Source: Salinirubrum litoreum
Lineage (GTDB): Archaea > Halobacteriota > Halobacteria > Halobacteriales > Haloferacaceae
Length of the DNA: 64,000 bases
Reading direction: 5' to 3'
NCBI RefSeq assembly: GCF_020567425.1
Contig: NZ_JAJCVJ010000001.1
Span: 620,001 to 684,000, forward strand
Below are positions 24,385-41,114 of this stretch, piece by piece (the first letter of the stretch is position 1; every line of letters starts with the position of its first letter). The notes beneath the pieces were generated by a model. It searched no databases and was not told where the DNA came from. It saw only the letters and a program-made list of their open reading frames with translations. Made by a program: the position numbers and the translations under genes.

Positions 24385-25062
24385 GTGACAGCGACACGCA
24401 CGGAGAGTGCGGAGCCGACCACGCTCGGCGTGTCGGGAGCGACGACAGTGAGCGACGAGGCAATCGACAGGATACTGCGACGGGTGGCGACGTGGCCCGG
24501 TGTCACGATAACGGAACCGGGAGCTACGCCGACGGGAGCGACCCTGCTACCGGAACAGGACGGCGGCGCGAGTACGGTCGAGCCACCGGTGGAAGGGAGT
24601 CTGATTCGGATCGACGAGAACGTGGTCGCCGGCGTCCGAGCCGACGGACTGCTCGACGTCCCGGTGGACCGGCGGCTCCGAGACCAACTCCTCACCGAGG
24701 GGAGAGCCGACAGACATCCGGTCGCACCGAGCGCGAATCGGGTGAGCTACCGGATCGGCGGCCCGGCAGACGTCTCCGGGGCGATGTGGCTCCTCCGGGT
24801 CGTCCACCTCGCACACTGTTGCCGGACTGCTCGTCTCTCGCCGTCGGTCGTGTCGAGACGCACGCGACTGCTCCGTCTCTCGCCGGAACTGGCGAGACTG
24901 GTCCACGAGGAGGAACGACTGGTCCACGAGGAGGAACGACTGGTTCGCGAGGAGGAACGCCCGGTCCGCGCCGACGGTGACGCCGAGAGCGGCGACGCGA
25001 CTACCTCGCCGGGAGCGGCCGACGGTCGGCAGTCGGTGCCGCCACGCCACTTCCGGGACTGA
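24385..25062 (+). CDS. luciferase-domain (DUF5519-like) protein with a HEEER-repeat tail
   Basis: A 225-aa cytoplasmic-looking protein. The segment from LRRVATWPGVT to RVSYRIGGPADVSGAMWLL resembles the small luciferase domain (DUF5519), with LDVPVDRRLRDQLLTEGRA in the middle. The tail has three copies of LVHEEER-type heptads encoded by a 21-nt tandem repeat, predicted to be helical and charged. Start at GTG 24385 is favoured by an upstream TATA-like box. Its last 62 nt overlap the end of the convergent gene at 25001. Function unknown; domain call moderate. Confidence 0.6.
   Translation: MTATRTESAEPTTLGVSGATTVSDEAIDRILRRVATWPGVTITEPGATPTGATLLPEQDGGASTVEPPVEGSLIRIDENVVAGVRADGLLDVPVDRRLRDQLLTEGRADRHPVAPSANRVSYRIGGPADVSGAMWLLRVVHLAHCCRTARLSPSVVSRRTRLLRLSPELARLVHEEERLVHEEERLVREEERPVRADGDAESGDATTSPGAADGRQSVPPRHFRD
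24898..24960 (+). repeat. 21-nt tandem repeat, three units, in coding sequence
   Basis: The unit CTGGTCCACGAGGAGGAACG plus A occurs at 24898, 24919 and 24940 (third unit diverged), encoding the heptad LVHEEER. Confidence 0.85.
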
Positions 25063-25348
25063 CGACCGACGCACTGCTCCCACACTCGGTGTTCCCGGTG
25101 TTGCCCACACAGCCGTCGTCGTTGCCAGCAGCACCTCCATCGTCGTTGCCAGCGGTGCCACCGTCGTCGTTCCCGGCAGTGCCGCCGTCGTCGTTGCCGA
25201 CCGAGAAGTTCGCGGCCGCGCCGATACCGCCACTGAACGCTTCCTGATCCGACAGCGACGCCTGGGTGTAGAAGCCGCCGGCGAAACTCAGCCCGAAGAC
25301 GAGCGCCGCGAAGGTCAATGCGGCGAGTCGCCGGTCGCTCTCGTTCAC
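25001..25348 (-). CDS. small secreted protein with GNDDGG repeats, downstream of the signal peptidase
   Basis: A 115-aa protein. It starts with a hydrophobic signal-like segment (LAALTFAALVFGLSFAGGFY) followed by SLSDQEAFSGGIGAAANF, which resembles the post-signal segment of SipW-dependent proteins (FSDxExFxxN). The middle has four GNDDGG(T/A)A units. The GTG start overlaps the stop of the signal peptidase gene (GTGA), so it is translationally coupled and is probably one of its substrates. The Cys pair near the C-terminus is followed by a low-complexity tail. Confidence 0.62.
   Translation of the reverse strand: MNESDRRLAALTFAALVFGLSFAGGFYTQASLSDQEAFSGGIGAAANFSVGNDDGGTAGNDDGGTAGNDDGGAAGNDDGCVGNTGNTECGSSASVVSPGSGVAAPTADRRPLPAR
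25112..25200 (-). repeat. 24-nt tandem repeat encoding GNDDGG units
   Basis: About three and a half units of 24 nt with plus-strand core CCGTCGTCGTTGCC(A/G), encoding the Asp-rich octapeptide repeat of the small secreted protein. Confidence 0.75.
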
Positions 25349-26658
25349 CGTTCCTCACCTCCGTCTCCCGACTCGTCCGAGAGGTCCGCGTCGTCACTCG
25401 ACGCCGGAACCGACTCGGCTGTCTCGTCTGCCACACCGGTCCCGTTCGTCGCTTCGGCCCCGTGGCCCGCCGTCTTCTCCCCGCCGGTCGCTGGCGGGGT
25501 CTCGGGCGTCTCGGGCAACCTGACGACCGGTGGTTCGACAGTCGGTAGGGACCCGTCGCCGGCACTGTCCGCTGCCGACGATCCGTCTTCGCCGCCCGGA
25601 TCCGCCGTCGACCGGGCGACTCGCGTACCTGCAGAGCCGCCGTCGTCCGGTCCCGTGTCGGTCACGGCTCCACCATCGTCATCGTCGGGGCCGTCGCGGT
25701 GGGCCACGGTCGACGACGAACTCCCGGCGTCTCCGCCGGCCGCGTAGTAGATCGCACCGCAGATCACGACCCCGGCACCCGACCCGACTGCGGCCGTCAC
25801 CGTCACGCCGGACGTCTCCTGCAGAGCGATCCACGTCGCGTACACCGCGAAGACTGACAGGATCGCCATCGAGAGTCGGAGGTCCGAGCGCGTGACGGTG
25901 TAGGTCGACGCCGTCGGTTCTGTCGACTCGTCGCCCGCGTCTGTCGCCGTCGACTCTGCGGTCGTCCGATCTGCAGTCCCCGACTCGCCGGTGACCGACT
26001 CCGCAGTCGTCACGGCCGGCGTGGTCGTCGCATCCGGCGCGGTCGGTGCGTCGGCCGCTTCAGGTGCGGCCGCGACACCTCCCTCGTCACTGGTCGTCTC
26101 GCCGCCACCGGTCCCGTCGTTGCCCGCCCGAAGGATCGACCAGGCCTCGTTGACGACCAGCAGTCCGAGCGGCAGTCCGATCAGGAGGAGGAACCCGGTC
26201 TGTGTGTTGGCGAACCGGACGACGTAGCCGATCAGCGGGATCACGTAGGTCACCTCGCCGATCACCTGTTCGGGGCGGACGGGCGCTGGATCGGGGTCCT
26301 CGTTCGCGTCGCCTTTCGTCGTGTACGCGACCCCCTCCTCGCGCGGGTTCACCTCGACGACGCGGTGGGTCGTCGGCACCTCCGCGTCGCGCTGCATGAA
26401 GGTGATCACGTCTCCGCGTTCGATCTGTCTCTGCGTCGCCTCGCTGACGACCACCACGTCACCCGGCGAGATCTCCGGTTCCATGCTCCCCGAGAGCACG
26501 ACGAAGCTGTGGTCCGCCCCCACGACCGCCGGCATCGAGTAGACGACGAACGGCGCGACGACCGCGATCAGCACGACGACCGCGAGGACGTTCACTACTC
26601 CCCCGAGCGTCGGCGACGGCAGTCGACTCGTCGTGCTGTTCGCCTCGGCTCGTGTCAC
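25345..26658 (-). CDS. signal peptidase I, SipW/ER type
   Basis: A 437-aa membrane signal peptidase. After a first membrane segment comes VVLSGSMEPEISPGDVVVV (nucleophile Ser in GSMEP), then THRVVEV with His where bacterial enzymes have Lys, and KGDANEDPDP with the Asp pair; this Ser/His/Asp set is the SipW and ER type. Two or three further hydrophobic segments lie in a long C-terminal part with acidic, Thr/Ser-rich linkers, making it much longer than a minimal enzyme of about 180-200 aa. Start at GTG 26658 with GGAGGGG upstream. It sits directly downstream of TasA-like genes and very likely processes them. Confidence 0.88.
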   Translation of the reverse strand: MTRAEANSTTSRLPSPTLGGVVNVLAVVVLIAVVAPFVVYSMPAVVGADHSFVVLSGSMEPEISPGDVVVVSEATQRQIERGDVITFMQRDAEVPTTHRVVEVNPREEGVAYTTKGDANEDPDPAPVRPEQVIGEVTYVIPLIGYVVRFANTQTGFLLLIGLPLGLLVVNEAWSILRAGNDGTGGGETTSDEGGVAAAPEAADAPTAPDATTTPAVTTAESVTGESGTADRTTAESTATDAGDESTEPTASTYTVTRSDLRLSMAILSVFAVYATWIALQETSGVTVTAAVGSGAGVVICGAIYYAAGGDAGSSSSTVAHRDGPDDDDGGAVTDTGPDDGGSAGTRVARSTADPGGEDGSSAADSAGDGSLPTVEPPVVRLPETPETPPATGGEKTAGHGAEATNGTGVADETAESVPASSDDADLSDESGDGGEER

Positions 26659-26790
26659 GATACTCCCCTCCGCTTTTCGCGTCTGTCGTGTCCCACTCCT
26701 GACTCCCCCGGATGGTGTGGCCGCGCCGACTGCCCGGTCGACGCGCCACCGTCGCCACGGCCTTCGGCCGAGACCCGATTAGCTATTCGT

Positions 26791-26842
26791 CGGTTAACCC
26801 TCGGAAAGAACGGTCCCGGCGGGAGTCCCACTCGGTTAACCG
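26791..26842. promoter_or_regulatory. pair of CGGTTAACC palindromes upstream of the signal peptidase gene
   Basis: CGGTTAACC at 26791-26799 and CGGTTAACCG at 26833-26842 lie 42 nt apart, about four helical turns, in the 295-nt gap before the signal peptidase. An AT-rich patch (GATTAGCTATTCG) flanks the pair. The spacing suggests a cooperative operator, but no regulator is proven. Confidence 0.4.
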
Positions 26843-26953: not shown

Positions 26954-27721
26954 TCACGGGCCGCCTCCTGCACAGCGCTCGGCCGTGAACCCCACGCCGA
27001 AGTCGACCGAGTCGGTCTGGACCGCGTTCGCCGTCTCGGGCGCGAGCGACCACCCGACCGCGACCGACACCGACTCGCCGGGGCGGAGACACGCCGGGCC
27101 GGACGACGCCGGATCGAGGACGACGCCGCCGGAGAGTGCCGACGCGACCTCCCGAAGCGACCCCTCGGCGTCCGGCGCGACCAGTGGCTCGCCGGGTTCG
27201 CGGGTCCCGTTGCGGGTGCCGAGACCGTCGACGCCGGCGGCACCGCGGTCGTACCAGACCTCGACAGCCAGCGCGTCGGCGAGTTCCCCGCCGTCCTCGC
27301 CAGTCGTCGTGTCGCCGGCCGTCGACTCCGGTTCGTTGATCCCGTTCTCGGCGTTGCCGGTGAGCGCCAGCGAGGCGGTGACCTCGGCGGGTCCCGGTTC
27401 CCCGGTCGGCACGGTCAGTCGGATGACGAGTGCCCCGGTGTCGCCCGGCAAGAGGTTCGAGAGCGCGACTGCTGGCCCGGCGGGTGCGTCGCCGCCACCG
27501 TCCTCGAAGCCGGTGCCGGCGATACGCTCGCCGTTGTAGAGTGCGACCCACTCGACGCGGAGTGTCGGCCCGTTCTGCTGGGTGATCTCGCGCTGGTCGG
27601 TGAACGAGACGGCGTCTAATCCGAGTGCACCGCGAGCGACCGAGGCACCACCGTAGAGTCCACCGACACCGGCGACTGCGGCGAGAACTGCCCTGCGTGA
27701 CGGCGGATCGGGTGTGTCCAT
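26954..27721 (-). CDS. SipW-dependent TasA/camelysin-like secreted protein
   Basis: A 255-aa secreted protein. The N-terminus is SRRAVLAAVAGVGGLYGG, an RR-containing signal-like segment, and the C-terminal part has ANAVQTDSVDFGVGFTAERC, the motif shared by the paralogues at 28-34 kb. The middle (NLLPGDTGALVIRLTVP, NGINEPES, VEVWYDRGA) matches their KPGDFGEV, N..TEPE and WYD.G blocks. It is the most diverged member: the usual FFSDxE after the signal is replaced by FTDQRE. Its start lies 2 nt after the T-arm leader element. The signal peptidase gene follows. Confidence 0.78.
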   Translation of the reverse strand: MDTPDPPSRRAVLAAVAGVGGLYGGASVARGALGLDAVSFTDQREITQQNGPTLRVEWVALYNGERIAGTGFEDGGGDAPAGPAVALSNLLPGDTGALVIRLTVPTGEPGPAEVTASLALTGNAENGINEPESTAGDTTTGEDGGELADALAVEVWYDRGAAGVDGLGTRNGTREPGEPLVAPDAEGSLREVASALSGGVVLDPASSGPACLRPGESVSVAVGWSLAPETANAVQTDSVDFGVGFTAERCAGGGP

Positions 27722-27723
27722 AC

Positions 27724-27845
27724 GCCCACCGGCGGAGTCGAACCGCCGCCACGTGGCGCCGTCGACAGCAGGTCCGCGTGAGACCGGAGTCGTCGACGGG
27801 TCGCGTGCCCCGGGGGATGTGCCACCGGGAAGCGCCCGCGTGGGT
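27724..27845 (-). promoter_or_regulatory. tRNA-like T-arm leader element, copy A
   Basis: In the sense strand it opens with ACCCACG, has a 90-nt variable middle, then stem GGCGG, loop TTCGACT, stem CCGCC and closing GGTGGGC. The closing strand ends 2 nt before the ATG at 27721, so GGTGGG may also act as ribosome-binding site. A TATA-like ATTAAATAA (27878-27887) would start transcription near the element's 5' end. Confidence 0.75.
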
Positions 27846-28090: not shown

Positions 28091-30001
28091 TCATGGCTCG
28101 AGATCGTAGATGACGCCGTCTCCGGATTCGAGTCGAATCTCAATGCCGTCGATGTCGCCGCTGTGGTCTTGGTACCAGTCACTGCCAACGGCGAACCGCA
28201 TCGTCTTCACCTGCATGTCGCGGTAGTTGATTTCGGTCGTCTCCGCGTCCGACACGTAGTCCGACCACTGGAACGAGCCCGTCGACTGGATGTCCGACAG
28301 TGTCGCGCCGGTGTCCTGGCCGTAGTAGGGCGGCGGGTTCCCGTCGCTCGTGCCGTAGTCACGTGCAGTGTCGTACCACGTCAGCTGGTTTGACCCACTC
28401 TCCGTCCGCCACGTCACCCACTCGTCTGCCGGCGCGTCTGTGTCGAACGAGTCTTCGGGGAGTGCCTGTAGGAGCTTTCCGTAGTACCCCGCGTCCGGGT
28501 TTGGGTCGCTGTCGACGGTGGTCCAGATCTCCGCGAAGAACTCCTTGCCGAGCGGCACGCCGCTGTCCCGGCGCGTCCGGTACCGGACCGACTCGATCTC
28601 ACCGACCGTGAACGGCGGGAGCGGAGCGAAGTCGAAGTAGAACGTCCCGATGTAGAACTGTTCGTAGTTCCCTGGGTCTGGTTCGTCGGAGTTCGTCTGG
28701 TCGTCGTCGTCGGTCCAGTAGCCAGATCCGACGGCACCGTCGCCGCTCGCCGACGCGAAGCCGAACTGCTCCGCCTCGTCGCTTCCGAGGGAGACTCGGC
28801 GAACGTCGCCCACGCCCGTGTTGTGCCGACACTGCTCGGTGTAGAATCCCATATCGAACGCGACCGAGTCGGTCTGGATCTCGTTCGCGTGGTCGGCCGG
28901 GAGCCACCACGCCATCGCGCAGTAGCGCGTGGTGGAGTTCGGGAAGCAGTCGTGACCTTCTGTGGTCGGGTCGGCGTCGAGCAAGAGTCCACCGGTCTCG
29001 AGAACGGAGAGTGTCTCCCTGAGTGTTCCGCGGTGGACGAGCGCCTCTTCTTGAGAGGCCATGATTCCACTGTCGGCAGTGTCATGAGTTGCAACGAGTT
29101 GTTCAGCGTCTCCTCCGTAGTTTTCTCCAGAAAGCACATTGTCGCCGTCGTCGTGCCAGATGGCGACCTGTATCTCGTCTAGTAGTTCGACCTGTGCGGT
29201 CTGGACGTTCGTGGTGAGTTCGTCCGCAGACCCGTGTTCGTCTGCGTCGTCGGCCTCTGGTTCGGTGTGGCCGTGTTCGCCGGCCTGTACTAACTGGCCC
29301 GTCATCCAGACGTGACCGGGATTGTTGAACGTGTGCATTCCAAACGTTACTTCACCCATATCCCCTGGCTTCACATCTTGCATCTGGACGAGTGGTTTGC
29401 CTCGATAGTCTCTAGTACGGTTCTTCAAATTCTCACCGTCTGAGAGATTAGCGAACTGTTTCCGAAAAGCGTCTTCCAATTGCTGGCCTGAGTAACCGTA
29501 GTGAGACGATAACGTGTTGCGGGAGTGGATAGTGTCCTGAATCCCATCATCGTCCGAGTCGGGGTATGCATCGATGGATGTGTTCGCCATGAAGTCGTCG
29601 ACACATTCCTCGGGTACCGCGATTAGTGGCTCCATAGGGACTGGGAAGCCGACGTAATCTTCCGGGACAAGAGAGGGCTCCCCCTCTGTCATCACCACCT
29701 CCCAATCGTCGACACCGTCGCCGTCGATATCGCTATCGCTGTCGTCTTCTGTTGTCTCAAGTGGACCATTCAGTGAACTGTCCGTCAGGTCGTCGTTCTC
29801 GTCGTCCGACCAGTCGGAGTAGTGTTCCTGGAAGGCCACCATCATGTCCAACTCGCCCGCGACGAGGCTGTTGTTCTGGAAGGACTCCTCGTCGCTGAAG
29901 AACGCCGTCGTGCCGAGGCCGGCACCGACCGACCCGATACCCACGGCTCCGAGGCTTCCGAGGACTTTGCGTCGCGTCAAGCGGAGACCATCGTCTGTCA
30001 T
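28091..30001 (-). CDS. SipW-dependent TasA-like secreted protein with extra C-terminal domain
   Basis: A 636-aa surface protein. The signal region reads LTRRKVLGSLGAVGIGSVG then TTAFFSDEESFQNN, which combines an RR motif with the SipW-type FSDxExFxNN site. The TasA-like body contains DVKPGDMGEVTFGMHTFNNP, EPEADD and DHANEIQTDSVAFDMGF plus TEQCRHN near residue 400. The last 230 residues are an added domain with no family I recognise (FYFDFAPLPPF, DIDGIEIRLESG). Start at ATG 30001, 23 nt downstream of element B. Probably a fibre or matrix subunit carrying a displayed domain. Confidence 0.8.
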   Translation of the reverse strand: MTDDGLRLTRRKVLGSLGAVGIGSVGAGLGTTAFFSDEESFQNNSLVAGELDMMVAFQEHYSDWSDDENDDLTDSSLNGPLETTEDDSDSDIDGDGVDDWEVVMTEGEPSLVPEDYVGFPVPMEPLIAVPEECVDDFMANTSIDAYPDSDDDGIQDTIHSRNTLSSHYGYSGQQLEDAFRKQFANLSDGENLKNRTRDYRGKPLVQMQDVKPGDMGEVTFGMHTFNNPGHVWMTGQLVQAGEHGHTEPEADDADEHGSADELTTNVQTAQVELLDEIQVAIWHDDGDNVLSGENYGGDAEQLVATHDTADSGIMASQEEALVHRGTLRETLSVLETGGLLLDADPTTEGHDCFPNSTTRYCAMAWWLPADHANEIQTDSVAFDMGFYTEQCRHNTGVGDVRRVSLGSDEAEQFGFASASGDGAVGSGYWTDDDDQTNSDEPDPGNYEQFYIGTFYFDFAPLPPFTVGEIESVRYRTRRDSGVPLGKEFFAEIWTTVDSDPNPDAGYYGKLLQALPEDSFDTDAPADEWVTWRTESGSNQLTWYDTARDYGTSDGNPPPYYGQDTGATLSDIQSTGSFQWSDYVSDAETTEINYRDMQVKTMRFAVGSDWYQDHSGDIDGIEIRLESGDGVIYDLEP

Positions 30002-30024
30002 GTTCGCCAACCCCTCGCGGGAGG

Positions 30025-30069
30025 ACCCACCGGCGGAGTCGAACCGCCGAACGTGTGGCCAGCGTGGGT
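30025..30069 (-). promoter_or_regulatory. tRNA-like T-arm leader element, copy B
   Basis: A short copy of 45 nt: ACCCACG, 14 nt, GGCGG-TTCGACT-CCGCC, GGTGGGT. It starts 37 nt after the stop of the gene at 30107. A mini-hairpin (CCTC-CCGC-GAGG) and GAGGGG follow before the ATG at 30001. Confidence 0.75.
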
Positions 30070-30106
30070 CGGGTGGTCGGAGGGTAGTGCCTGGTCGAGC
30101 GGTCGA

Positions 30107-31804
30107 TCAGCCGTTCTCGGGAGCCTGCGGCGTGCCGCCGTCGTTGTGGCGGCACTGCTCGGTGTAGAAGCCGAGGTCGAAGCTCACGGAGTCCGTCTGG
30201 ATCTCGTTGGCGTGATCGACCGGGAGCCACCACTCGAAGCCGATGTAGGCGGTCGTCGAGTTGGGGAAGCAATCACGGTCCGGGTCACCCACTGGACCGC
30301 CGCCACCGTTGCCGTCGTCACCGTCGACCGGGCAGCAGACGTCGATGTTACTGATTCCTTGACCAGTGGGCGTGGTGAACGTAACTCCGTTTAGGATAAC
30401 AGGCTGGTCAAAGACGTAGATGTTCTCGCCTTCGTTGCCGCCTTTCACGCTGACAACTCTAACAGGGTTATCCGTCGAGAGCGTGATCGTATCAAGATCA
30501 CTGTCACCTCTCTGATCGCTGAGTGAGTCGACGGTGAGACCGGCACACGAACTGTAGTCCATACCCGCCTCGAGCATCTCTGCCTCGATGGCCGTTCCGA
30601 CGAGACTCATCCCGTCGAAGAGCAGATTATCATAGTCTCCACAGTTGAGATTCTTAGGGGCAGGATTGCCAGAGGCGCCGCCGGTCACGAACGACTTGAA
30701 CGGCTCGTCCTCGGTACTCACGTACAGTCTGTAGCTGTCGCCGTCGCCGTCGGTATCGCCATCAGCGTCAGCGAGGTCGTCCAGTACAGGGGCTGTATCA
30801 TTACTGCTCCCGCTAGTAGCCGTAGAGGTGGTAGCCGTGACAGGGTTGGCGTCAAGCGGGAACGGGTTGTTCTGTAACTGGAGGAGGACACCACCGAGAG
30901 TACCCATCTGGATCGGCGACTCCCCAGGCTGGAGGTAGTTGTCCCCCTCGTCTTCATCCTTGTCACCGAAGTCGGCACCGTAGCCGTTTTCGCCGGTGTC
31001 GTACCAGAACGCGACTTGAATCTCGCTGAGCAGTTCGACGTCTGCCGGCGTGGTAGAGTCGGGGTCGCCGTCCTCGTCGGGGTCATTCTGTTCGGGTTCG
31101 GTCAAACCGTTCTCGCTTGCGGAGACGAGGTCACCGGTCAACCAGACGTACCCGGGGTTCCCGCACACGTGGAAAGAAAACGTGACTTCACCGAAATCAC
31201 CTGGTTTCACGTCCGCGATCTGGATCAGTGGGTCGCCAGCTGCAGTGGTCTGGGGGTTCGGGTCACCTCCGGCAGTGTAGCCATCGCCATCATCAGTTGC
31301 GACCGCTCCGGTACGGAACGGATGGCTGAGAACACCGTTTCCACCATCGGTATCAGCCGGCAAATTACAGATGTCGCTGTCGTTCGCCGGATCAGTTTTG
31401 ACTGCATCATAGTCGTCCGCTGTGACGTTTGCCGCGTCCAGAGACGGATCTGCGTCAGGGAACGCCTCAATGACGGTGTTCCGCAGGAACTGGTCCGGGT
31501 CGCTGACGAACACCGACTGATTCGTAGGGTCAGCCGCCGATGGAAAGCCGGTCAGTCCGTCACCAGGTTCCATCGCTACCGTGTCGATGCCCTCGGCTTC
31601 GTCGTCAGACCAGTCGGAGTAGTGCTCTTGCCAGTCGACCTTGAGGTCCAACTCCCCGGCTGTTAGGGTGTTGTCCTGGAAGTCTTCTCTGTCACTGAAG
31701 TACGCAGTCGTGCCGAGTCCCGCACCTGCCGACGCGATCCCGATGGTGCCCAGACCGGCGAGGACTTCGCGTCGTGAGATGTCGAACCCGCTGTTGTTTG
31801 CCAT
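30107..31804 (-). CDS. SipW-dependent TasA-like secreted protein with inserted domain
   Basis: A 565-aa paralogue. The signal is ISRREVLAGLGTIGIASAG followed by TTAYFSDREDFQDNTLTAGE. The body has DVKPGDFGEVTFSFHVCGNP, GLTEPEQNDPDEDG, VAFWYDTGENG and, near the C-terminus, AYIGFEWWLPVDHANEIQTD and TEQCRHNDGG. About 150 residues are inserted between the FPLDANP and CFPNSTTAY blocks, with VRVVSVKGGNEGENIYVFDQ and DVCCPVDG; a related insert is seen in the paralogue at 37224. Secreted, probably cleaved by the local SipW-type peptidase. Confidence 0.82.
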   Translation of the reverse strand: MANNSGFDISRREVLAGLGTIGIASAGAGLGTTAYFSDREDFQDNTLTAGELDLKVDWQEHYSDWSDDEAEGIDTVAMEPGDGLTGFPSAADPTNQSVFVSDPDQFLRNTVIEAFPDADPSLDAANVTADDYDAVKTDPANDSDICNLPADTDGGNGVLSHPFRTGAVATDDGDGYTAGGDPNPQTTAAGDPLIQIADVKPGDFGEVTFSFHVCGNPGYVWLTGDLVSASENGLTEPEQNDPDEDGDPDSTTPADVELLSEIQVAFWYDTGENGYGADFGDKDEDEGDNYLQPGESPIQMGTLGGVLLQLQNNPFPLDANPVTATTSTATSGSSNDTAPVLDDLADADGDTDGDGDSYRLYVSTEDEPFKSFVTGGASGNPAPKNLNCGDYDNLLFDGMSLVGTAIEAEMLEAGMDYSSCAGLTVDSLSDQRGDSDLDTITLSTDNPVRVVSVKGGNEGENIYVFDQPVILNGVTFTTPTGQGISNIDVCCPVDGDDGNGGGGPVGDPDRDCFPNSTTAYIGFEWWLPVDHANEIQTDSVSFDLGFYTEQCRHNDGGTPQAPENG

Positions 31805-31821
31805 AGGGTTGTCACCCGAGG

Positions 31822-31912: not shown

Positions 31913-34186
31913 TTACTCTGCGGACACGTCGACTGCCCAGCCCTCGTCTCCACCGGGGAAGTCACCCTGCCTGGATACGGAGAGTTCCCCGCTCAGCTCG
32001 AAGCTCTCCGAGCCGTCGAGCGCCGTATCGAGAACAAGGTAGTTGAATGCCCGGCCGCCGCCGTCGTCGTCGTTCGTCGCTTGGACGCTCGTCGGGCCGT
32101 TGATCGTCTGACTGTTCCCGTCGACTGACAGCGACACGTTCTCGGCGTTGACGGTGGCTTCGTCGGCTTTCGTCTGTACGAGCAACCGCCCGTCGAAGGC
32201 GCTGGCAGCCGTGGTCCGCGAAACCGTGGTCGCGCCGACGTTGAACTCCGTGGTACCGTCGCTCGAGTCGTAGCTCAGGCTCCACGGAACGTTGGATAGC
32301 GGGAAGCTCCAAGACGCGTCGGTCGTGTCCTCGGACGGAGTGTCACCCGATCCGATGCCGACCTCCCACCCGCCATTGCCGTTCCGGGCACGTGAAGTGA
32401 TCGCGTTCGGAGTGTCGAAGTCTTCACCATCGTCCCCGTATCCATTGTTCTGGTTTTCCGACTCAGATAGTTTCCCGAACCCGGTCCCGGTCCGTGATGG
32501 GATCTCCGGATCTCCAACACCGCCACCCTGGCCGCTCCCGTTGTTGTGGCGGCACTGCTCGGTGTAGAAGCCGAGGTCGAACTGCACAGAGTCGGTCTGG
32601 ATCTCGTTGGCGTGGTCCAGCGGAAGCCACCAGTCGAACCCGATGTAGTGTGGGGTCGACGCAGAGTAGCAGTTCCGGGCGTCCGCGCTCCCGCCACCTT
32701 CTGGTGCCGGGACGTCCCCATCGAGTGGGAAGCCGAGGCTCCCATTCTCGGGGTCGAACTCGTACTGGTTACAGAAGTCTTCGAGCGTGCCACGGAAGAA
32801 CTCCTGTTCGCCACCTTCGATGACTTCGAAATTGTTCTCGATCTCATCGATGGCATCGGCGATGCTGGTGTCGACGGCGCCCTGATCCGTGCCGCTCTGG
32901 ACCTGGATCACCTCGTCGCTGATGTCCGTGTGGAACTGCTGCTGTGCGGGACTGAGGTTGCCGAAGGCGACGATCTTGATCTCGACGCCAGCGTTCTTCA
33001 GGTTGTCCGCCGCCGCCTGAACGTTGGCCCGTTCGGTCGCGTCCGAGGGTCGGCTGTCCCCGTTGGTGTAGACGACGATCACGTTGTCGTCGTTTTCGTC
33101 GTCGGTGTCGTCTGTCACGAGGTCCGCCAGAGCGTTCTCAAGGCCCTCAACGAAATCCTCCGCGCCGAGAGTGCCACCACCAGCGCCTGCCGTGTTGCCG
33201 AGCGCAGTGTCTACGTCGTCGGTGTCCGTACTATCTGCCAGTAGCTCCGACGCGCCGGCCTCGGCCATCACTGCGACTGTCTGCTCAACCGTGGTGCCGA
33301 GACCGTCGAGGTAGGCGTTCGTCGCTTCTCCGACTTGGATCGCCGCGTCGTCCTTCTCGAACTCCGTCCCCTCCTCAACCAAGTTCTCCTCCATTGTCCC
33401 GGAGGTATCGATCAAGTGATAGACGTCGATGGCCTGCGCCCCAGGCTCGTAGATGTTGTCGCCGTCGTCGTACCAGGCGCGTACCTCGATCTGCTCGGCG
33501 AGTTCGGGCTCCCCGCCGGGGCCGTCCTCGTCCGGATCGTCCAGTTCTGGCTCGGTGAAGCCGTTCTCGGCCTCCGAGAAGTTGTTGCAGTAGAACCAGA
33601 CGAACCCTGGATTGTTACACAGGTGGAAGCTCAGGGTGACTTCTCCGAAGTCACCTGGCTTGACGTCGTCGAGAGCGACGACCGGCTCTCCACGGTACTG
33701 CTCCGTGCGGAGGTCCGAGTCGAGGAGGTCTGGGGTGTCCGCGTCCTCCTCACAGATGTCGAAGCCCTCCGGAAAGTCCTGAATACCGTCGTCGTTCGTG
33801 TCCGGGTACGCGTCGATGGACGTGGCGTCCTTGAACTCCGCGACGGTGTTGTTCGGGAACCTGAGCGATATCGGTTCCGCCAGGTCGTCGGCGTTCGGGC
33901 CGGGTGGGAGGTAGATGTCCGCCTCGTCTTGCGGGACACCCATCTCAACCTCCAGGTCGGCCTCGGTGCTTCCGTCACCACCTCGGTTGTTGATCCAGTC
34001 GGCGTAGTGTTCCTCGAAGTCGACCTTGAGGTCGAGCGACCCGGCTGTCAAGCTGTTGCCCTCGAAGTCTTCTCGGTCGCTGAAGAATGCTGTCGTGCCC
34101 AGTCCAGCCCCCGCGGACGCGACACCTACTGTGCCGAGTGCCGCGAGCGCCTTCCGCCGCGTCAGTTCGATTGGTTGGTCTGACAT
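31913..34186 (-). CDS. SipW-dependent TasA-like secreted protein with inserted vWA domain
   Basis: A 757-aa protein, the largest of the set. The signal is LTRRKALAALGTVGVASAG followed by TTAFFSDREDFEGNSLTAGS. The TasA-like body is split: DVKPGDFGEVTLSFHLCNNP and VRAWYDDGDNIYEPGAQ, then about 190 residues of von Willebrand A fold with a MIDAS start DVYHLIDTSGTMEEN, VIVVYTNGDSRPSD and VEIKIVAFGNLSP, then FFRGTLEDFC and DHANEIQTDSVQFDLGF. A C-terminal region (ASWSFPLSNVPWSLSYD) may be a further small beta domain. The vWA domain suggests metal-dependent adhesion. Start at ATG 34186. Confidence 0.82.
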   Translation of the reverse strand: MSDQPIELTRRKALAALGTVGVASAGAGLGTTAFFSDREDFEGNSLTAGSLDLKVDFEEHYADWINNRGGDGSTEADLEVEMGVPQDEADIYLPPGPNADDLAEPISLRFPNNTVAEFKDATSIDAYPDTNDDGIQDFPEGFDICEEDADTPDLLDSDLRTEQYRGEPVVALDDVKPGDFGEVTLSFHLCNNPGFVWFYCNNFSEAENGFTEPELDDPDEDGPGGEPELAEQIEVRAWYDDGDNIYEPGAQAIDVYHLIDTSGTMEENLVEEGTEFEKDDAAIQVGEATNAYLDGLGTTVEQTVAVMAEAGASELLADSTDTDDVDTALGNTAGAGGGTLGAEDFVEGLENALADLVTDDTDDENDDNVIVVYTNGDSRPSDATERANVQAAADNLKNAGVEIKIVAFGNLSPAQQQFHTDISDEVIQVQSGTDQGAVDTSIADAIDEIENNFEVIEGGEQEFFRGTLEDFCNQYEFDPENGSLGFPLDGDVPAPEGGGSADARNCYSASTPHYIGFDWWLPLDHANEIQTDSVQFDLGFYTEQCRHNNGSGQGGGVGDPEIPSRTGTGFGKLSESENQNNGYGDDGEDFDTPNAITSRARNGNGGWEVGIGSGDTPSEDTTDASWSFPLSNVPWSLSYDSSDGTTEFNVGATTVSRTTAASAFDGRLLVQTKADEATVNAENVSLSVDGNSQTINGPTSVQATNDDDGGGRAFNYLVLDTALDGSESFELSGELSVSRQGDFPGGDEGWAVDVSAE

Positions 34187-34210
34187 GGTCAGGTATCCCC
34201 GGTAGGGGAC

Positions 34211-34314
34211 GCCCACCGACGGAGTCGAACCGTCCTCCACGGGGTCCGAATCCAACCGGCAGGCGGTCGACGTGACCGCCTGCCCGTCAGCGGAACCGGG
34301 AGTCCGAAGTGGGT
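34211..34314 (-). promoter_or_regulatory. tRNA-like T-arm leader element, copy D
   Basis: 104 nt: ACCCAC, a long middle with an 11-bp hairpin (GGCAGGCGGTC-ACGTC-GACCGCCTGCC), then GACGG-TTCGACT-CCGTC and GGTGGGC. The T-stem differs from copies A-C by a paired change (G-C to A-T), keeping the stem. A CCCC-TACC-GGGG hairpin precedes the ATG at 34186. Confidence 0.78.
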
Positions 34315-34726: not shown

Positions 34727-35257
34727 ATGGGGATACTCAGGAAACGGAATCTCATCGACACGGACATCCACGACATCCTGTGCAACCAGCGGCGTCGTCA
34801 CGCGCTGAACCACCTCAGACGGCGTCGTGAGACGGTATCGCTCGCCGAACTGGCCGACGCCGTCGCCGAACAGGAGACCGGGCAGGCATCACCGCCCGCC
34901 GACCTCCGCCAGAGCGTCTACAACTCGCTCCACCAGACGCACCTGCCGCGACTCGACGCCGAGGGTGTCATCGAGTACGACCCCGACGGGAAGGAGATCA
35001 GACTCACGGAGTCGGCCCGCGAGGTGGAGGTCTACATGGAGGTGTTCACGCGCTACGGGGTCACCTGGGCGGAGTACTACCGCCTGCTCGGGACGGTCGG
35101 CCTGTGTGTCGTCCTCCTCGCGACACTGGAGATGGGACCGTTCGCGCTCGTGCCGCCCGTCGTCGCGGTCACGTTCTTCCTCGTCCTGCTGGCCGTATCG
35201 ACCGTCTACCAGCTGGTGACCCGACGACACGTCACCCTCCGACAGCTCTTCGGGTGA
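34727..35257 (+). CDS. DUF7344-type winged-helix protein with two C-terminal membrane segments
   Basis: A 176-aa predicted membrane-bound regulator. Residues 1-110 form a winged helix with NQRRRHALNHLRRRR, the conserved AELADAVAEQE, RQSVYNSLHQTHLPRL and EGVIEYDPDGKEIRLTE. Residues 120-170 contain two hydrophobic segments and the tail VTRRHVTLRQLFG. It is nearly identical in layout to the protein at 40435. It is divergent from the TasA-like operon at 34186, and a tiny membrane protein gene starts 2 nt after its stop. Likely controls the surface-protein genes; the signal is unknown. Confidence 0.8.
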   Translation: MGILRKRNLIDTDIHDILCNQRRRHALNHLRRRRETVSLAELADAVAEQETGQASPPADLRQSVYNSLHQTHLPRLDAEGVIEYDPDGKEIRLTESAREVEVYMEVFTRYGVTWAEYYRLLGTVGLCVVLLATLEMGPFALVPPVVAVTFFLVLLAVSTVYQLVTRRHVTLRQLFG

Positions 35258-36352: not shown

Positions 36353-37135
36353 TCACCGTCCACCAGACTCCGCGCCGATCGGACTCTCGACGCGCTCGCC
36401 GTCGGTGTGACGCGACTGGAGTGCCCCGACCTCGAAGCTGAAGTCGACGGAGTCCGTCTGGACTTCGTTGCCGACGTCGTTCGGCAACCGCCACTCGACT
36501 CTGATGGCCTGTTCGTCGTCCTCGGTGTACTCGTCGTCACCGTCAGGATCGCAGTCAGTCACGAGTCGTCCGCCGTCGGCGGTCGGCATCGCCGTCGTCA
36601 GCAGGTCGTACAGCGAGAGCGGCGTCTCGACCGAATCGACGAAGCCCTGGACGGCCGTGATCTCGACGTGCTGAGCGAGTTCGCCGCCGCCGTCGATGTC
36701 GTCGTCTGGCGCGTAGTCGTCGTCCTCCCCGTCGGCATCGGCTTCCGGTTCGGTCACAGAGTTCTCGTCGTTCGCCACAAGCGTCCCGCCGGCGAAGACG
36801 TACGCCGGGTTCCCCTCGACGGACGGGACGAACTCGAAGTGACCGCTGTCGCCCGGTTTGAGGTCCTCGACGACGTAGGCACCGGAGACACTCGCTCCGT
36901 CTACGGTCACGTTGGTCTTCACGGAGGAGTCGGTATCGGCACCGTCCTGGGATACCGCCCCGTCGAAGGTCACCGCCAGATTCAGATCGCCGGCCTGGAC
37001 GGCGTTGTCAGTAAACTCCTCGCTGTCGGTGAGGTACGCGACGGTCCCCAGTCCGGCCCCGGCCGCCGAGACGCCGACCGTGCCGAGTACCGTGAGCACT
37101 CGCCGACGGGTGAGTCTGATTCGTCGGTCTGTCAT
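36353..37135 (-). CDS. SipW-dependent TasA-like secreted protein, short form
   Basis: A 260-aa minimal member. The signal LTRRRVLTVLGTVGVSAAG is followed by TVAYLTDSEEFTDNAVQAGD. The body has DLKPGDSGHFEFVPSVEGNP, NSVTEPEADADGEDD and RLPNDVGNEVQTDSVDFSFE, with RH replacing the CRHN seen in the other group. It closes the operon that starts with the gene at 38986. No inserted domain, so it may be a basic fibre subunit. Confidence 0.8.
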   Translation of the reverse strand: MTDRRIRLTRRRVLTVLGTVGVSAAGAGLGTVAYLTDSEEFTDNAVQAGDLNLAVTFDGAVSQDGADTDSSVKTNVTVDGASVSGAYVVEDLKPGDSGHFEFVPSVEGNPAYVFAGGTLVANDENSVTEPEADADGEDDDYAPDDDIDGGGELAQHVEITAVQGFVDSVETPLSLYDLLTTAMPTADGGRLVTDCDPDGDDEYTEDDEQAIRVEWRLPNDVGNEVQTDSVDFSFEVGALQSRHTDGERVESPIGAESGGR

Positions 37136-37152
37136 CCTGTGTGTGACGCGAG

Positions 37153-37193
37153 ACCCACCGACGGAGTCGAACCGTCGTGACGCCGGCGTGGGT
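37153..37193 (-). promoter_or_regulatory. tRNA-like T-arm leader element, copy E
   Basis: The shortest copy, 41 nt: ACCCACG, 10 nt, GACGG-TTCGACT-CCGTC, GGTGGGT. It has the same covaried T-stem as copy D and starts 30 nt after the stop of the gene at 37224. Confidence 0.78.
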
Positions 37194-37223
37194 GAACGGG
37201 GGAGAGGGAACTGCGGCGGTGTC

Positions 37224-38885
37224 TCAGACGGTCGGGTTGTCGTTGTTGCGGGCCTGTTCGGCCTCGAAACCGAGGTTGAACTTCATCGAGTCCGTCTGAA
37301 TCTCGTTGCCGACGTCGGGATCGATGTACCAGGCGAATCCGATGTAAGCAGTCGTAGAGTTCACAAACGGTTCACGCTCGTCGGCGGCTGGATTCGCAGG
37401 CTGGGGCTCGTAGCAGATGAGGAGGTAGCTCAGAGCCTTATTTTTTGGTGCCGCGAACGTGACATTGGTAAGGGTGGCTCCGTCGGGTTCCTCGTAGACT
37501 TTGAATCCAGGACCACTGTTGCCTCCGCCTTGGGAGGATCCACCCTTGGGCGTCACTGCGGTGATCGGTTTGTTGGTGCTGATCTCTAATTCGAGCACTT
37601 CACCAGTCTGGCTGTCGCGTGTGACAGAATCAACCGTGATAGTGATGCCACCAGTGCTGGCGTCCGGACCGATAGTATCGCCGGCTTCTAAACTCTCGAG
37701 CTCTGAACCCTCTATCTTTGCTACTTCGGAGTATTCCGGATTGATGTCTTCGCAGTCCGGTTGTCCTTTGTAATCGATATCAGTCGGTTCCAGGACGTTA
37801 CTGAAATCACTAATATCATCAATCTCCTTATTGCTCGATTCGGGAACGACCTCGAAGAAGTCGGTGGAGAGGTCTCCGTTGAGTGGTATTCCACCCTCTA
37901 GCGTGTCGAGAACCATCCCAAGGTTCCCGCGAAGCACCTCGTTGGCGTTCGCGATTATGGTCTCATTCTCCTGTAGAATGTTGTCCCCCTCGGTCGGATC
38001 ACTGCTGGGTTCCGCTCCCGCATCCTCGAACTCATTGTCTTCTCCCGCATCGTACCAGATAACTGCAGATGCCTCGTCGAGCAACTCGCCGTTCATGTCG
38101 TCTGACGCGTTTCCGGTCCCATCAACTTCCTCTTCGGGTTCGGTGAGATCGTTCTCAGCGTTCTCCAGTAATTCGCCCGAGATGGAAATGTAAGCAGGGT
38201 TACCGCAGTTGTGAAGACTAAACGTCACCTCACCGAAATCACCAGGTTTTGCGTCAGAGATGTCTACCAGCGGGTCACCCTCGTCAGTCGTCTGAGGATT
38301 TGGTCCACTGCCGACTTGTCCCTGTGTCCGACTAGATGATGAAAGGATGTCTCCATTGTCGGGGACAAGTGGCTGGAGATACGCACACTCCGCACTGTCG
38401 TCGCCTTGAGCTCCATTGACGGGAATGTCGTCCTGAATTCCATCGTCCGCATCCGAGGAGCTAATATTGCTGTAATCGGTGCCATCGACGGTGATTTCTC
38501 TACCGTCTGTATCAGGGAATGAATCGATGGCCGACGCATCCATGTACGCCTTCACCGGATCCGGAAGTTCGGAGTAGGCGGCGTTGACTGCGACCAGAGG
38601 ATTGTCCTGCGATGGGATACCGACCTCGTCAGTCTCGAGATTAGCGTCGTCGGGGTCCACGTATCGGACGTATTCGAGATCATCCGCCGGTGCGGCTCCC
38701 GAATAGTGTTCTTCAAAGTCGATCACCAAGTCGAGTTCACCGGCTTGGACGATGTTGTTCCCGAAGCTCTCCGTATCGTTGAAGAACGCCGTCGTCCCGA
38801 GACCCGCCCCCACTGAGGCGACTCCGACGGTGCCGACGGCACCGAGTATTTTCCGTCTCGTGATGTCGAGTCCGTTGTCTGTCAT
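37224..38885 (-). CDS. SipW-dependent TasA-like secreted protein with inserted domain, second group
   Basis: A 553-aa paralogue. The signal ITRRKILGAVGTVGVASVG precedes TTAFFNDTESFGNNIVQAGE. The body has DAKPGDFGEVTFSLHNCGNP, NDLTEPEEEVDG, AVIWYDAGEDNE and IGFAWYIDPDVGNEIQTDS with EQARNN at the end. Between PLNGDLS and FVNSTTAY is an insert of about 150 residues with PITAVTPKGGSSQ and LTNVTFAAPKNKAL, related to that of the paralogue at 30107. Base composition is noticeably lower in GC than in flanking housekeeping genes. Start ATG at 38885. Confidence 0.82.
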   Translation of the reverse strand: MTDNGLDITRRKILGAVGTVGVASVGAGLGTTAFFNDTESFGNNIVQAGELDLVIDFEEHYSGAAPADDLEYVRYVDPDDANLETDEVGIPSQDNPLVAVNAAYSELPDPVKAYMDASAIDSFPDTDGREITVDGTDYSNISSSDADDGIQDDIPVNGAQGDDSAECAYLQPLVPDNGDILSSSSRTQGQVGSGPNPQTTDEGDPLVDISDAKPGDFGEVTFSLHNCGNPAYISISGELLENAENDLTEPEEEVDGTGNASDDMNGELLDEASAVIWYDAGEDNEFEDAGAEPSSDPTEGDNILQENETIIANANEVLRGNLGMVLDTLEGGIPLNGDLSTDFFEVVPESSNKEIDDISDFSNVLEPTDIDYKGQPDCEDINPEYSEVAKIEGSELESLEAGDTIGPDASTGGITITVDSVTRDSQTGEVLELEISTNKPITAVTPKGGSSQGGGNSGPGFKVYEEPDGATLTNVTFAAPKNKALSYLLICYEPQPANPAADEREPFVNSTTAYIGFAWYIDPDVGNEIQTDSMKFNLGFEAEQARNNDNPTV

Positions 38886-38909
38886 TGGTTCTCCCCCTCG
38901 TTCGGGGAA

Positions 38910-38960
38910 ACCCACCGGCGGAGTCGAACCGCCACCACGTTCGCGGGCACCAGCGTGGGT
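38910..38960 (-). promoter_or_regulatory. tRNA-like T-arm leader element, copy F
   Basis: 51 nt: ACCCACG, 20 nt, GGCGG-TTCGACT-CCGCC, GGTGGGT. It starts 25 nt after the stop of the gene at 38986, the tightest spacing of the set. A hairpin CCCC-GAACGA-GGGG, with GGGGGAGA next to it, precedes the ATG at 38885. Confidence 0.78.
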
Positions 38961-38985
38961 GAAATCCAGATGATTGGGGGTATGT

Positions 38986-39867
38986 TCAGCTATCGACCGC
39001 GTCAAACGGGTTGCTACTGTTGTTCCGAGCCTGTGCTGCCTCGAACTCAAGGTCAAAGCTCACAGAGTCTCCCTGTATGATGTTCCCAACTCCATCCGGA
39101 ATCTCGAATTTGGCGTAGTAGCAGGCGACCCCGGTGAACGAACTGCCGCCCCTGAAGTCGATTCCACCGTCGGTGAGGTCATTGAGAACTTTGTTCAGCG
39201 ACCCCGAGAGTCTTGAGATTGAGGGATCGATTTCCCCGGCTTGACTGTCGTACCCACCTCCGACGGTCACCTCAATGGCATTGTCGAGTTCACCGTCCCC
39301 AGAGATGCCGTCGTTGTCACCGGGCGAAGACTGTTCCAGATCTATTCCGTCATCCTTCGTACCGTAATCGTTGCCCGAACTGTCGTCATCGCCTTCGGGT
39401 TCCGTGATGTCGTTCTCGGGGTCTGCCACGTTCGATGCTGTGGTCCGTACGTACGCCGGATTCCCGAGGACATTGGCACAGACCTTGAGGACGAAGGAGT
39501 CACCCGGCTTCACGTCACCAAGCTGGAATCCGACTGCCGCATCGCCGTCCACGACGACCGCACCCTTGCTAGTCGTCTCCGGGTAGTTACTGACGTTGCC
39601 GAACGGGTTAGTATCTTCGTCGGTGTCGAACGGCACATTATTGCCGGACGCAACGACATTGGTGTTGTTCACGCCACCGAAATCGTAGTCAATGACGTCA
39701 ACAGACGCTTGAAGATTCAGCGTCCCTGCCTGCACGCTGTTGTTTTCGAAGCTTTCCGTGTCGTTGAAGTACGCGGTCGTACCGACGCCTGCGCCTGCGG
39801 ACGCGACACCGATTGTGCCGAGTGCCGCGAGCGCCTTGCGCCGCGAGATGTTGAACTCCTGTGGCAT
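38986..39867 (-). CDS. SipW-dependent TasA-like secreted protein, first gene of second operon
   Basis: A 293-aa member. The signal ISRRKALAALGTIGVASAG is followed by TTAYFNDTESFENNSVQAGT. The body includes DVKPGDSFVLKVCANVLGNP, NDITEPEGDDDSSGND and KFEIPDGVGNIIQGDSVSF with EAAQARNN. It has no large insert. It is the first gene of the operon 39867-36353, preceded by element G and a shared AT-rich promoter motif, and divergent from the second winged-helix regulator at 40435. Confidence 0.82.
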   Translation of the reverse strand: MPQEFNISRRKALAALGTIGVASAGAGVGTTAYFNDTESFENNSVQAGTLNLQASVDVIDYDFGGVNNTNVVASGNNVPFDTDEDTNPFGNVSNYPETTSKGAVVVDGDAAVGFQLGDVKPGDSFVLKVCANVLGNPAYVRTTASNVADPENDITEPEGDDDSSGNDYGTKDDGIDLEQSSPGDNDGISGDGELDNAIEVTVGGGYDSQAGEIDPSISRLSGSLNKVLNDLTDGGIDFRGGSSFTGVACYYAKFEIPDGVGNIIQGDSVSFDLEFEAAQARNNSSNPFDAVDS

Positions 39868-39892
39868 GGTTCGATCGCCCCCTTCCGGGGAG

Positions 39893-39991
39893 TCCCACCG
39901 GCGGAGTCGAACCGCCGTCGGACGTCCACTCCCCCCAGCGGGTGGACGTCCGCCCCCTCGCGGACCGCGAGGGGGTTGGACCGACGTGGGT
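39893..39991 (-). promoter_or_regulatory. tRNA-like T-arm leader element, copy G (cloverleaf-like)
   Basis: 99 nt and the most tRNA-like: ACCCAC pairs with GTGGG, then a 10-bp hairpin (CCCCCTCGCG-GTC-CGCGAGGGGG), an 11-bp hairpin (CGGACGTCCAC...GTGGACGTCCG, 12-nt loop) and the T-arm GGCGG-TTCGACT-CCGCC. There is no D-arm consensus or 7-nt anticodon loop, so it is not a tRNA gene. A CCCC-GGAA-GGGG hairpin follows before the ATG at 39867. Confidence 0.8.
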
Positions 39992-40364: not shown

Positions 40365-40380
40365 GCTAATTAGTTATTAG
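40365..40380 (+). promoter_or_regulatory. AT-rich promoter motif of the regulator at 40435
   Basis: GCTAATTAGTTATTAG, about 60 nt before the ATG, contains ATTAGTTAT as at 34659 and 34371. A GTTAAC palindrome (40349-40354) lies just upstream, like those before the signal peptidase gene. Confidence 0.4.
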
Positions 40381-40434
40381 TGGATGGTCGCTACTGGTTG
40401 CCGTGCCGACACGACGTCGGCCGACTGGACGACA

Positions 40435-40962
40435 ATGGAGCTACGTAAAGAGCGCGACCTGGTCGACACGGACATCCACGCCATCCTCGGGAACCGACGC
40501 CGGCGCCACGCACTCGACCACCTCCGCGAGACGCCGGACACCGTCGCCATCTCGGATCTGGCCGACGCCGTCGCCGAACGGGAGGCCGGGGAGTCACCGC
40601 CACCGGAGGACCTCCGCCAGAGCGTGTACAACTCGCTCCACCAGAGCCACATCCCGCGTCTCGAAGGGGAGGGGGTCATCGAGTACGACCGGGAGACGAA
40701 CGAGATTCGACTCACCGAGTCGGCCCGCGAGGTGGAGGTCTACATGGAGGTGTTCACCCGATACGGGATCACCTGGGTCGAGTACTACCGCCTGCTGGGG
40801 ACCGTCTCGCTGCTGGTGTTGCTGCTCGCCACGATGGACGTCGCTCCGTTCGCGCTCGTGGACACGGTGCTGTGGGTGTCGCTGTTCCTCGCGCTCATCG
40901 CCGTCTCGACGGCCTATCAGCTCTGGACCCGGCGGTCTCTCTACCTCAGACAGTTCCTGTAA
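40435..40962 (+). CDS. DUF7344-type winged-helix protein with two C-terminal membrane segments, second copy
   Basis: A 175-aa paralogue of the protein at 34727, with NRRRRHALDHLRETP, DLADAVAEREAGES, RQSVYNSLHQSHIPRL, EVEVYMEVFTRYGITWVEYY and two hydrophobic segments before WTRRSLYLRQFL. The shared stretch EIRLTESAREVEVYMEVF is identical in both. It is divergent from the second TasA-like operon and is followed by a 44-aa membrane protein gene. The arrangement mirrors the first pair and suggests duplication of a regulatory module. Confidence 0.8.
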   Translation: MELRKERDLVDTDIHAILGNRRRRHALDHLRETPDTVAISDLADAVAEREAGESPPPEDLRQSVYNSLHQSHIPRLEGEGVIEYDRETNEIRLTESAREVEVYMEVFTRYGITWVEYYRLLGTVSLLVLLLATMDVAPFALVDTVLWVSLFLALIAVSTAYQLWTRRSLYLRQFL

Positions 40963-40979
40963 CGACACGAGTATCGAGG

Positions 40980-41114
40980 ATGCGAATCGACACACTTCCC
41001 GGCTTCCGACCGGGCACCCCGAAACGGAATGCACTCGTTCTCCTCCTCTACTCGTTGCTACTGTTCGTCGCTGCCGCGACCTCCGACCTCCTGCCGAAGC
41101 TACTCGTCCCCTGA
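40980..41114 (+). CDS. 44-aa membrane protein following the second winged-helix regulator
   Basis: Starts at ATG 40980, 17 nt after the regulator stop, and reads MRIDTLPGFRPGTPKRNALV, then a membrane segment and SDLLPKLLVP. The PGxRxGxPKRNALVLLLY core matches the 51-aa protein at 35259. The basic KR before the membrane segment predicts the N-terminus inside. Function unknown; probably an accessory of the winged-helix protein. Confidence 0.68.
   Translation: MRIDTLPGFRPGTPKRNALVLLLYSLLLFVAAATSDLLPKLLVP

Follow-up and report, generated by a model that had tools for sequence, protein, structure and literature searches.

Structures shaped like transfer RNA (tRNA) can serve as cutting signals in longer transcripts. 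This is the case in mitochondrial tRNA punctuation, where they stand between cistrons. In Haloferax volcanii, the t-element directly 5' of 5S ribosomal RNA (rRNA) is reported to be cut by tRNase Z (PMC4326828). T-elements are also reported to have been used in this species in vivo to free CRISPR RNAs via RNase P and tRNase Z (PMC4326828, PMC4946936; also PMC3296008). The present work describes a tRNA-like element of similar build that stands directly in front of seven TasA/camelysin-like genes of Salinirubrum litoreum. These lie in the window, the whole stretch of 64,000 nucleotides (nt) that was analysed from the 4.06 Mb genome (contig C1, NZ_JAJCVJ010000001.1, positions 620001-684000).

The proteins encoded at this locus also have described relatives. 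In Bacillus subtilis, tapA-sipW-tasA places a cognate SipW-type signal peptidase next to TasA-fold substrates, as is found here. There are two substrates in B. subtilis, whereas the window holds seven, which have twin-arginine motifs and, in one case, an inserted vWA domain. The peptidase found here is archaeal, and RNA elements precede the substrate genes. Another relative is the archaeal bundling pilus AbpA of Pyrobaculum calidifontis, which is reported to be a TasA-related fibre (PMC9674648).

The unusual part of the locus is the RNA element ahead of the genes, not the proteins. To our knowledge, few cis-acting RNAs are known in haloarchaea. T-elements as such were known already, and as far as a literature search shows, what is new is their association with TasA-like genes. 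In titles and abstracts, this search found no paper on t-elements before protein genes, the closest being Hoelzle 2008 and 2012, and no paper on a haloarchaeal SipW/TasA locus.

The tRNA-like element

The seven TasA-like genes form two operons, and all are on the minus strand. Operon 1 has the gene order J, I, H, and operon 2 the order F, E, D, C, B, A, where B encodes the signal peptidase. A tRNA-like element is located directly 5' of all seven TasA-like genes (C to F and H to J), and none is located before A or B.

The 3' part of the element reads GRCGG-TTCGAYT-CCGYC-GGTGGG. It comprises a T-arm, whose T-loop is canonical, and then the 3' strand of an acceptor stem. The distance to the matching 5' strand (ACCCAC or similar), which is located upstream, is 8-16 nt in compact copies. 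In the copies before J, F, and C this distance is about 70-90 nt, and the insert can be folded into one or two arms. In the alignments, the acceptor stem has 6 base pairs (bp) and the T-stem another 6, including the C-G pair adjoining the acceptor, giving a tRNA-like total of 12 bp. A nearly invariant GG comes right after the acceptor 5' strand; as a guess by analogy with the tRNA elbow, it may dock on the T-loop.

The copies differ in their arms, and all lie on the minus strand. The element before J (39892-39991) is a long form with two extra arms, and its likeness to tRNA-Sec is weak (25.4 bits, with a family cut-off of 47). Further along operon 1, the element between J and I (38909-38961) and the compact form before H (37152-37194) score 47.9 and 63.2 bits with model R1. 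Operon 2 starts with a long form carrying one extra arm before F (34210-34314; R1 25 bits, fold z -3.68), followed by elements between F and E (31821-31868; 58.5 bits) and between E and D (30024-30070; 60.8 bits). The element before C (27725-27845) is again of the long form, and 3 nt separate it from the start codon. R1 matches it in part, at 27726-27756 (32.4 bits).

Between the element and the start codon there is a second hairpin, typically TTCCCC-N-GGGGA, with a Shine-Dalgarno-like 3' strand. Stems of at least 4 bp are present in 49 of 59 leaders, compared with a mean of 28.3 and a maximum of 39 in 200 rounds of shuffling.

As in mitochondrial punctuation, tRNA-shaped structures are found here between cistrons. 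Unlike those, the elements are not tRNAs. ARAGORN makes no call for the elements in the window or at two further loci of the same genome (L012 and L013), and they have no match to Rfam RF00005. At gathering score, Rfam has no family for the elements of 20 loci, and the candidates rejected in this way include known riboswitches and cis-regulatory RNAs.

The element covaries as RNA, in the form of an acceptor stem stacked on a T-arm with its T-loop. Alignments were drawn from a set of 77 elements whose T-stem had been pre-filtered for pairing. In 56 of these, the 5' strand lay within 30 nt and the motif condition held; 40 entered one alignment, and 37 entered a second that was limited to elements outside known rRNA operons and omitted L048, L063, and L075. 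In the first, 97.0% of cells are paired, changes on both sides occur in 8 of 11 pairs, and none of 500 shuffles reaches this level, while slid controls give 31-57%. The second gives 97.3% of cells paired, both-side changes in 8 of 12 pairs, and again 0 of 500 shuffles. Pairing was used to collect the elements and to pick their 5' strands, so these counts lean towards structure.

Similar results come from tests that use no alignment or no pairing filter. Twelve elements deviate from GTGGG in the acceptor 3' strand, and eight of these have their own exact complement upstream. By permutation, the mean is 3.0, and 3 of 10,000 rounds are as high as the observed 8. In T-stem columns 26/40, counted over 202 distinct contexts without the pairing filter, there are 135 G-C, 50 A-U, and 16 G-U combinations, one other, and no A-C. 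The reversed pattern has no match in a set of 60 genomes, S. litoreum among them, in which the forward pattern gave 22.

The fibre-gene elements and the pre-5S t-element form one covariance family. A model (R2) trained solely on elements outside known rRNA operons recovers the pre-5S element in all 30 of 30 rRNA loci at E <0.01, and within those 30 loci it reports none of the tRNAs found by ARAGORN or Rfam. The 5S rRNA begins one base after the end of the model. Both kinds of element combine an acceptor stem with a T-arm and T-loop, and the H. volcanii pre-5S element likewise stands directly 5' of the RNA to be freed; one model finds both. They differ in the acceptor stem, which is CCGAC or CCGAT with its partner in the pre-5S element and CCCAC/GTGGG in the fibre-gene elements. 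The latter also precede protein genes of one class and are followed by a second hairpin, and their cleavage would be by analogy.

Tandem 5S rRNA genes, each directly preceded by its own t-element, are seen at six rRNA loci of family f7 (L139, L142, L158, L163, L167, and L170). At L162/L171, an extra element-like copy is found 3' of the 5S rRNA (506-548). Rfam finds no 5S rRNA behind this copy, which may be what is left of a second 5S gene.

Occurrence across haloarchaea

A pattern search of the S. litoreum genome gave 11 places. Seven are in the window, two are at the paralogous fibre locus L012, one is at L013 on contig C4, and one, at L014, precedes 5S rRNA, as confirmed by Rfam. The ten elements outside the rRNA operon all sit before SipW-like genes.

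Model R1 matched 184 of 292 Halobacteria genomes at E <=0.01, pre-5S elements included. In 13 genomes from several families, every match was examined. These 57 matches comprise 28 pre-5S elements (every locus Rfam-confirmed as 5S rRNA), 21 elements before genes for exported SipW-like or 'GTGAFTSV'-type proteins, and 8 other or unclear cases, the last two classes being assigned from N-termini read by eye and not by family search.

The exact pattern was found in 59 stretches among 84,980 prokaryote genomes, all haloarchaeal by title. Viral spread was rejected, as the pattern is present in no viral contig. For 70 elements of the exact-pattern loci, coding signature alone gave 67 downstream genes; three elements gave none. 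In overlapping counts, the 67 genes match TIGR04088 (43), camelysin M73 (39), DUF1102 (9), and signal peptidase (1). Most elements lie close behind another gene: 59 of 76 are within 420 nt behind a co-directional coding open reading frame (ORF), and 50 are within 120 nt.

Seven haloarchaeal records were also matched, including three named plasmids on which the genes behind the element are annotated as SipW-dependent or vWA proteins. On these three plasmids, no annotated feature lies under the element, and the feature table is without RNA genes. The sole bacterial record matched, from Agrobacterium, covers 64% of the query and lies inside an oxidoreductase gene.

Several other genes carry the element. 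DUF1102-like genes of the type MKRR...GTGAFTSVSADR do so at L045, L056, L064, L068, and L070, making the set broader than TIGR04088. At L231 in Halorussus ruber (3236-3799), the signal peptidase gene itself has an element in front. VWA models match 13-14 of the 67 downstream genes, whose products are candidate tip adhesins. A cluster of compact elements also precedes small genes of unassigned family at L148, L172, L153 (G222:C3:60368-61201), and L132 (G214:C3:14397). In three of these four, the start codon is only about 2-5 nt behind the element, so a tRNase Z cut would yield leaderless messenger RNA (mRNA). Haloarchaeal mRNAs are mostly leaderless.

The proteins of the locus

The protein locus is ordinary for haloarchaea, and genes of this kind have already been annotated by NCBI. 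Its layout is found again in the S. litoreum genome, at L012. In named haloarchaea with this layout, NCBI labels the genes 'SipW-dependent-type signal peptide-containing protein' and 'signal peptidase I'. An earlier, sequence-only reading of this stretch knew of no described system with the full layout, a claim that, for the proteins, these loci overturn. Its central proposal, a dedicated SipW-type secretion locus with TasA-like substrates, is supported by the signal model, the catalytic residues of the peptidase, and the predicted fold of gene J.

All genes of the two operons are on the minus strand, and in D, F, I, and J the true start codons lie inside the ORFs as listed. Gene J (38986-39867) encodes a TasA-like subunit of 293 residues with a twin-arginine and SipW-type signal (TIGR04088 34.9 bits). 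It is followed by gene I (37224-38885), for a TasA/camelysin-like protein of 553 residues (TIGR04088 22.2 bits; Pfam M73 25.6 bits), and by gene H (36353-37135), for a TasA-like protein of 260 residues (27.5 bits), which closes operon 1. Operon 2 opens with gene F (31913-34186), whose TasA-like product of 757 residues has an inserted vWA domain (PF00092 24.9 bits) and a C-terminal choice-of-anchor W domain (NF041928 50 bits; TIGR04088 25.1 bits). A vWA domain is also found inside a TasA-like protein at L013 (6463-8331). Genes E (30107-31804) and D (28091-30001) encode TasA/camelysin-like proteins of 565 residues (TIGR04088 31.4 bits; M73 22.9 bits) and 636 residues (TIGR04088 21 bits), the latter with a C-terminal extension. 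Gene C (26954-27721) was read from its translation as a divergent TasA-like protein of 255 residues with a twin-arginine signal.

Seven TasA/camelysin-like proteins had been predicted from the letters. TIGR04088, which models the SipW-cognate signal, scores six of them above its cut-off (D, E, F, H, I, and J). The seventh, C, falls below it and has no family match in Pfam/NCBIfam-type profile searches. For Pfam M73, with a cut-off of 22.5 bits, E and I are above, D (15.5) and J (21.9) are below, and C, F, and H are unlisted.

The sequence blocks said to be shared by all large members are less uniform than was proposed. E, F, and I have the complete KPGDxGEV block and D has it almost complete (KPGDMGEV also fits), but J has KPGDSFVL instead. 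All four of these proteins, D included, keep NEIQTDS unchanged, and in J it reads NIIQGDS. The contrast drawn between the end motifs of the two operons, from which two kinds of subunit or two fibres had been suggested, is partly right; it is clear-cut only when D, E, and F (HANEIQTDS...EQCRHN) are compared with I (VGNEIQTDS...EQARNN), while J (VGNIIQGDS...AQARNN) and H (VGNEVQTDS...LQSRHT) deviate from it.

Haloarchaea use twin-arginine translocation (Tat) for export. A twin-arginine motif is present in every subunit, and its R9 and R10 are invariant in 28 aligned sequences, including J. Because of this invariance, export of the subunits via the Tat route is likely.

The single SipW/endoplasmic reticulum-type signal peptidase is encoded by gene B (25345-26658) and has an acidic C-terminal extension. 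It scores 118.7 bits with TIGR02228 (cut-off 51.85), and its motifs SGSMEP, THR, and TKGD align with the Ser, His, and Asp motifs of human SEC11A, in agreement with the residues that had been noticed. With the Bacillus SipW equivalog model NF046067 it reaches 116.9 bits, under the curated cut-off of 190. Judged by these sequence comparisons, B is an archaeal peptidase of the SipW kind and not the Bacillus equivalog. The small coupled protein described with it is gene A (25001-25348), which overlaps the peptidase gene by 4 bases. Its N-terminus resembles those of SipW substrates, and profile searches gave no family match.

The comparison with TasA that had been suggested as a check was made for J, the sole subunit folded. 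Its AlphaFold2 model has a mean predicted local distance difference test (pLDDT) score of 66 and a predicted template modelling (pTM) score of 0.62. Foldseek ranked the TasA fibre first (E 5.6e-4, the sole match <0.001); the TM-scores were low (0.29 and 0.36). In a second structure comparison, the TasA entries 8aur, 5of2, and 5of1 took ranks 1-3, with Z 8.6, 8.4, and 8.3 over 136-147 residues; the next row had 6.5. Since unmatched models are typically at Z 7 to 8, according to the tool's own note, the ranking outweighs Z alone. A sequence search with J against solved structures gave no match. AbpA is absent among the structure rows listed for J, which proves nothing, as no direct AbpA comparison was made. 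Given this fold and the layout of the locus, its proteins probably form fibres.

Fimbrial models of the NCBIfam Taf series (TafA, TafC, TafE, and TafF) have weak matches in gene D and some relatives. For TafA, gene D reaches 17.6 bits, far under the curated cut-off of 190. TafE in the S. litoreum genome is below its cut-off, and 0 of 14 control genomes have a match. A literature search found no paper on these models.

Each operon has a divergent neighbour on the plus strand that encodes a DUF7344 winged-helix protein with a hydrophobic C-terminal part. These candidate regulators are at 40384-40962 (PF24035 94.4 bits), next to operon 1, and at 34727-35257 (96.4 bits), next to operon 2. A third DUF7344-type protein of the window is at 58890-59483. 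Such proteins occur in 22 of 36 sources searched, frequently close to fibre operons. The pair of divergent regulators had been overlooked in the sequence-only reading, along with the twin-arginine motifs, the vWA domain in F, and the tRNA-like elements.

Proposed leader processing and its rivals

The best explanation overall, which we hold to be slightly more likely than not, is that tRNA-processing enzymes cut the leaders of genes for exported TasA-type fibre proteins, giving each cistron its own mRNA 5' end. It is grounded in the protein families, the one fold, the covarying RNA, the family shared with the pre-5S element, the class-wide distribution, and the position of the elements. Cleavage at the fibre genes, the enzymes that would cut there, and a regulatory purpose are proposed by analogy.

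According to this model, the locus would produce TasA-type surface-fibre subunits. These would leave the cell through their twin-arginine, SipW-type signal and be trimmed by the peptidase of operon 2. At the RNA level, tRNase Z would recognise the leader element as it does the pre-5S element, and would cut just 3' of the acceptor stem; RNase P might cut 5' of it. Each cistron would become a separate mRNA with a new 5' end beside the short CCCC/GGGG hairpin. By analogy, gene D would have its cut near 30022, leaving about 21 nt to the start codon, and for gene C the new 5' end would be about 3 nt from the start codon. The subunits of one operon could then be made at unequal levels, and fibre expression would be tied to the maturation of tRNA and rRNA.

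Several points weigh against this explanation. The element is present at only 8 of 14 SipW-signal genes in the S. litoreum genome and at 12 of 31 in 13 other genomes, which rules out that every SipW gene carries it. For 17 of 76 elements there is no upstream co-directional gene, by a criterion that overlooks at least one real case, gene H. J and F are first genes, with a divergent regulator upstream, yet they carry the element, so punctuation is not the whole story. The first genes of many clusters are without it (G264, G183, G059, L012, and L013); a rule that only internal genes have elements fits these clusters and is broken by J and F. The minimum-energy fold departs from the consensus for the element of H and for the pre-5S element of S. 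litoreum. The conservation of CCCAC/GTGGG and GGCGG/CCGCC goes beyond the needs of pairing, and may be a sign of a specific binding factor. The confidence of the J model is also low (mean pLDDT only 66). Finally, Hoelzle and colleagues reportedly described further tRNA-like elements of H. volcanii in 2012, and those tested remained uncleaved in vitro.

The main rival has the element bound rather than cut. It would open or close the second hairpin, with its Shine-Dalgarno-like GGGG, and in this way switch translation of the fibre genes. We regard such a riboregulator as possible but unlikely. Its binder could be a small ligand or a T-loop-binding protein, namely a tRNA-modifying enzyme, a non-cleaving tRNase Z, or a dedicated factor. 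A conserved second hairpin (49 of 59 leaders, with a shuffled mean of 28.3), strong conservation beyond pairing, restriction to one functional gene class, and the presence of elements on the first genes J and F would all suit it. It agrees less well with the build of the element, which can take up optional arms as long as about 80 nt at a place where one would look for a compact pocket, and no riboswitch in Rfam matches. The structural family is moreover shared with the pre-5S element in 30 of 30 rRNA loci, where it is reported to be a processing signal (PMC4326828).

Simpler roles have been considered as well. The elements could be plain intercistronic hairpins, stabilising the transcript or signalling in transcription, with no link to tRNA. 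Their GC-rich stems, and the location of most of them 2-120 nt past a stop codon and ahead of the next start, are what such hairpins would show. This reading is nevertheless very unlikely: it does not account for the invariant T-loop, an acceptor strand that stands separately 8-100 nt further upstream, the GG that hardly varies between them, or the family shared with pre-5S elements, and there is no T-run after the elements. Least probable of all is a role in DNA, where the elements would be sites of recombination or gene conversion that shuffle fibre-gene cassettes, like integron attC sites. A short, nearly identical element with inverted-repeat character between consecutive paralogues invites this comparison. 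The elements have a single orientation, however, upstream of the gene, their T-loop and stems covary in an RNA-like manner, and the same structure precedes 5S rRNA; no integrase was noticed at the window locus, though none was searched for. A different kind of doubt concerns the proteins, which might be separate surface adhesins or proteases with a common fold instead of fibre subunits. The large inserts (such as the vWA domain in F), the extra C-terminal domains, the many paralogues, and the Pfam family label 'camelysin metallo-endopeptidase' point in that direction. We think this rather unlikely, given that the TasA fibre and crystal structures of TasA come top in the fold comparisons, and that a single locus repeatedly combines several subunits with their cognate peptidase.

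Extended to the whole class, processing of fibre-gene leaders leads to a broader proposal, which we put forward tentatively and a little short of probable. Halobacteria may have an RNA regulon of TasA-type fibre genes, in which armless or multi-armed tRNA-like elements are cut by tRNA-processing enzymes. The signal would be shared with 5S rRNA, and the cut would set the 5' end and the output of each cistron. The element can serve as a genomic marker of TasA-like fibre genes in haloarchaea. If the proposal is true, tRNA-like processing signals would be in natural use on mRNA throughout a whole class, confined to one functional set of genes. It raises the question, which can be tested in laboratory archaea, of why surface-fibre genes should have a tRNA-shaped leader.

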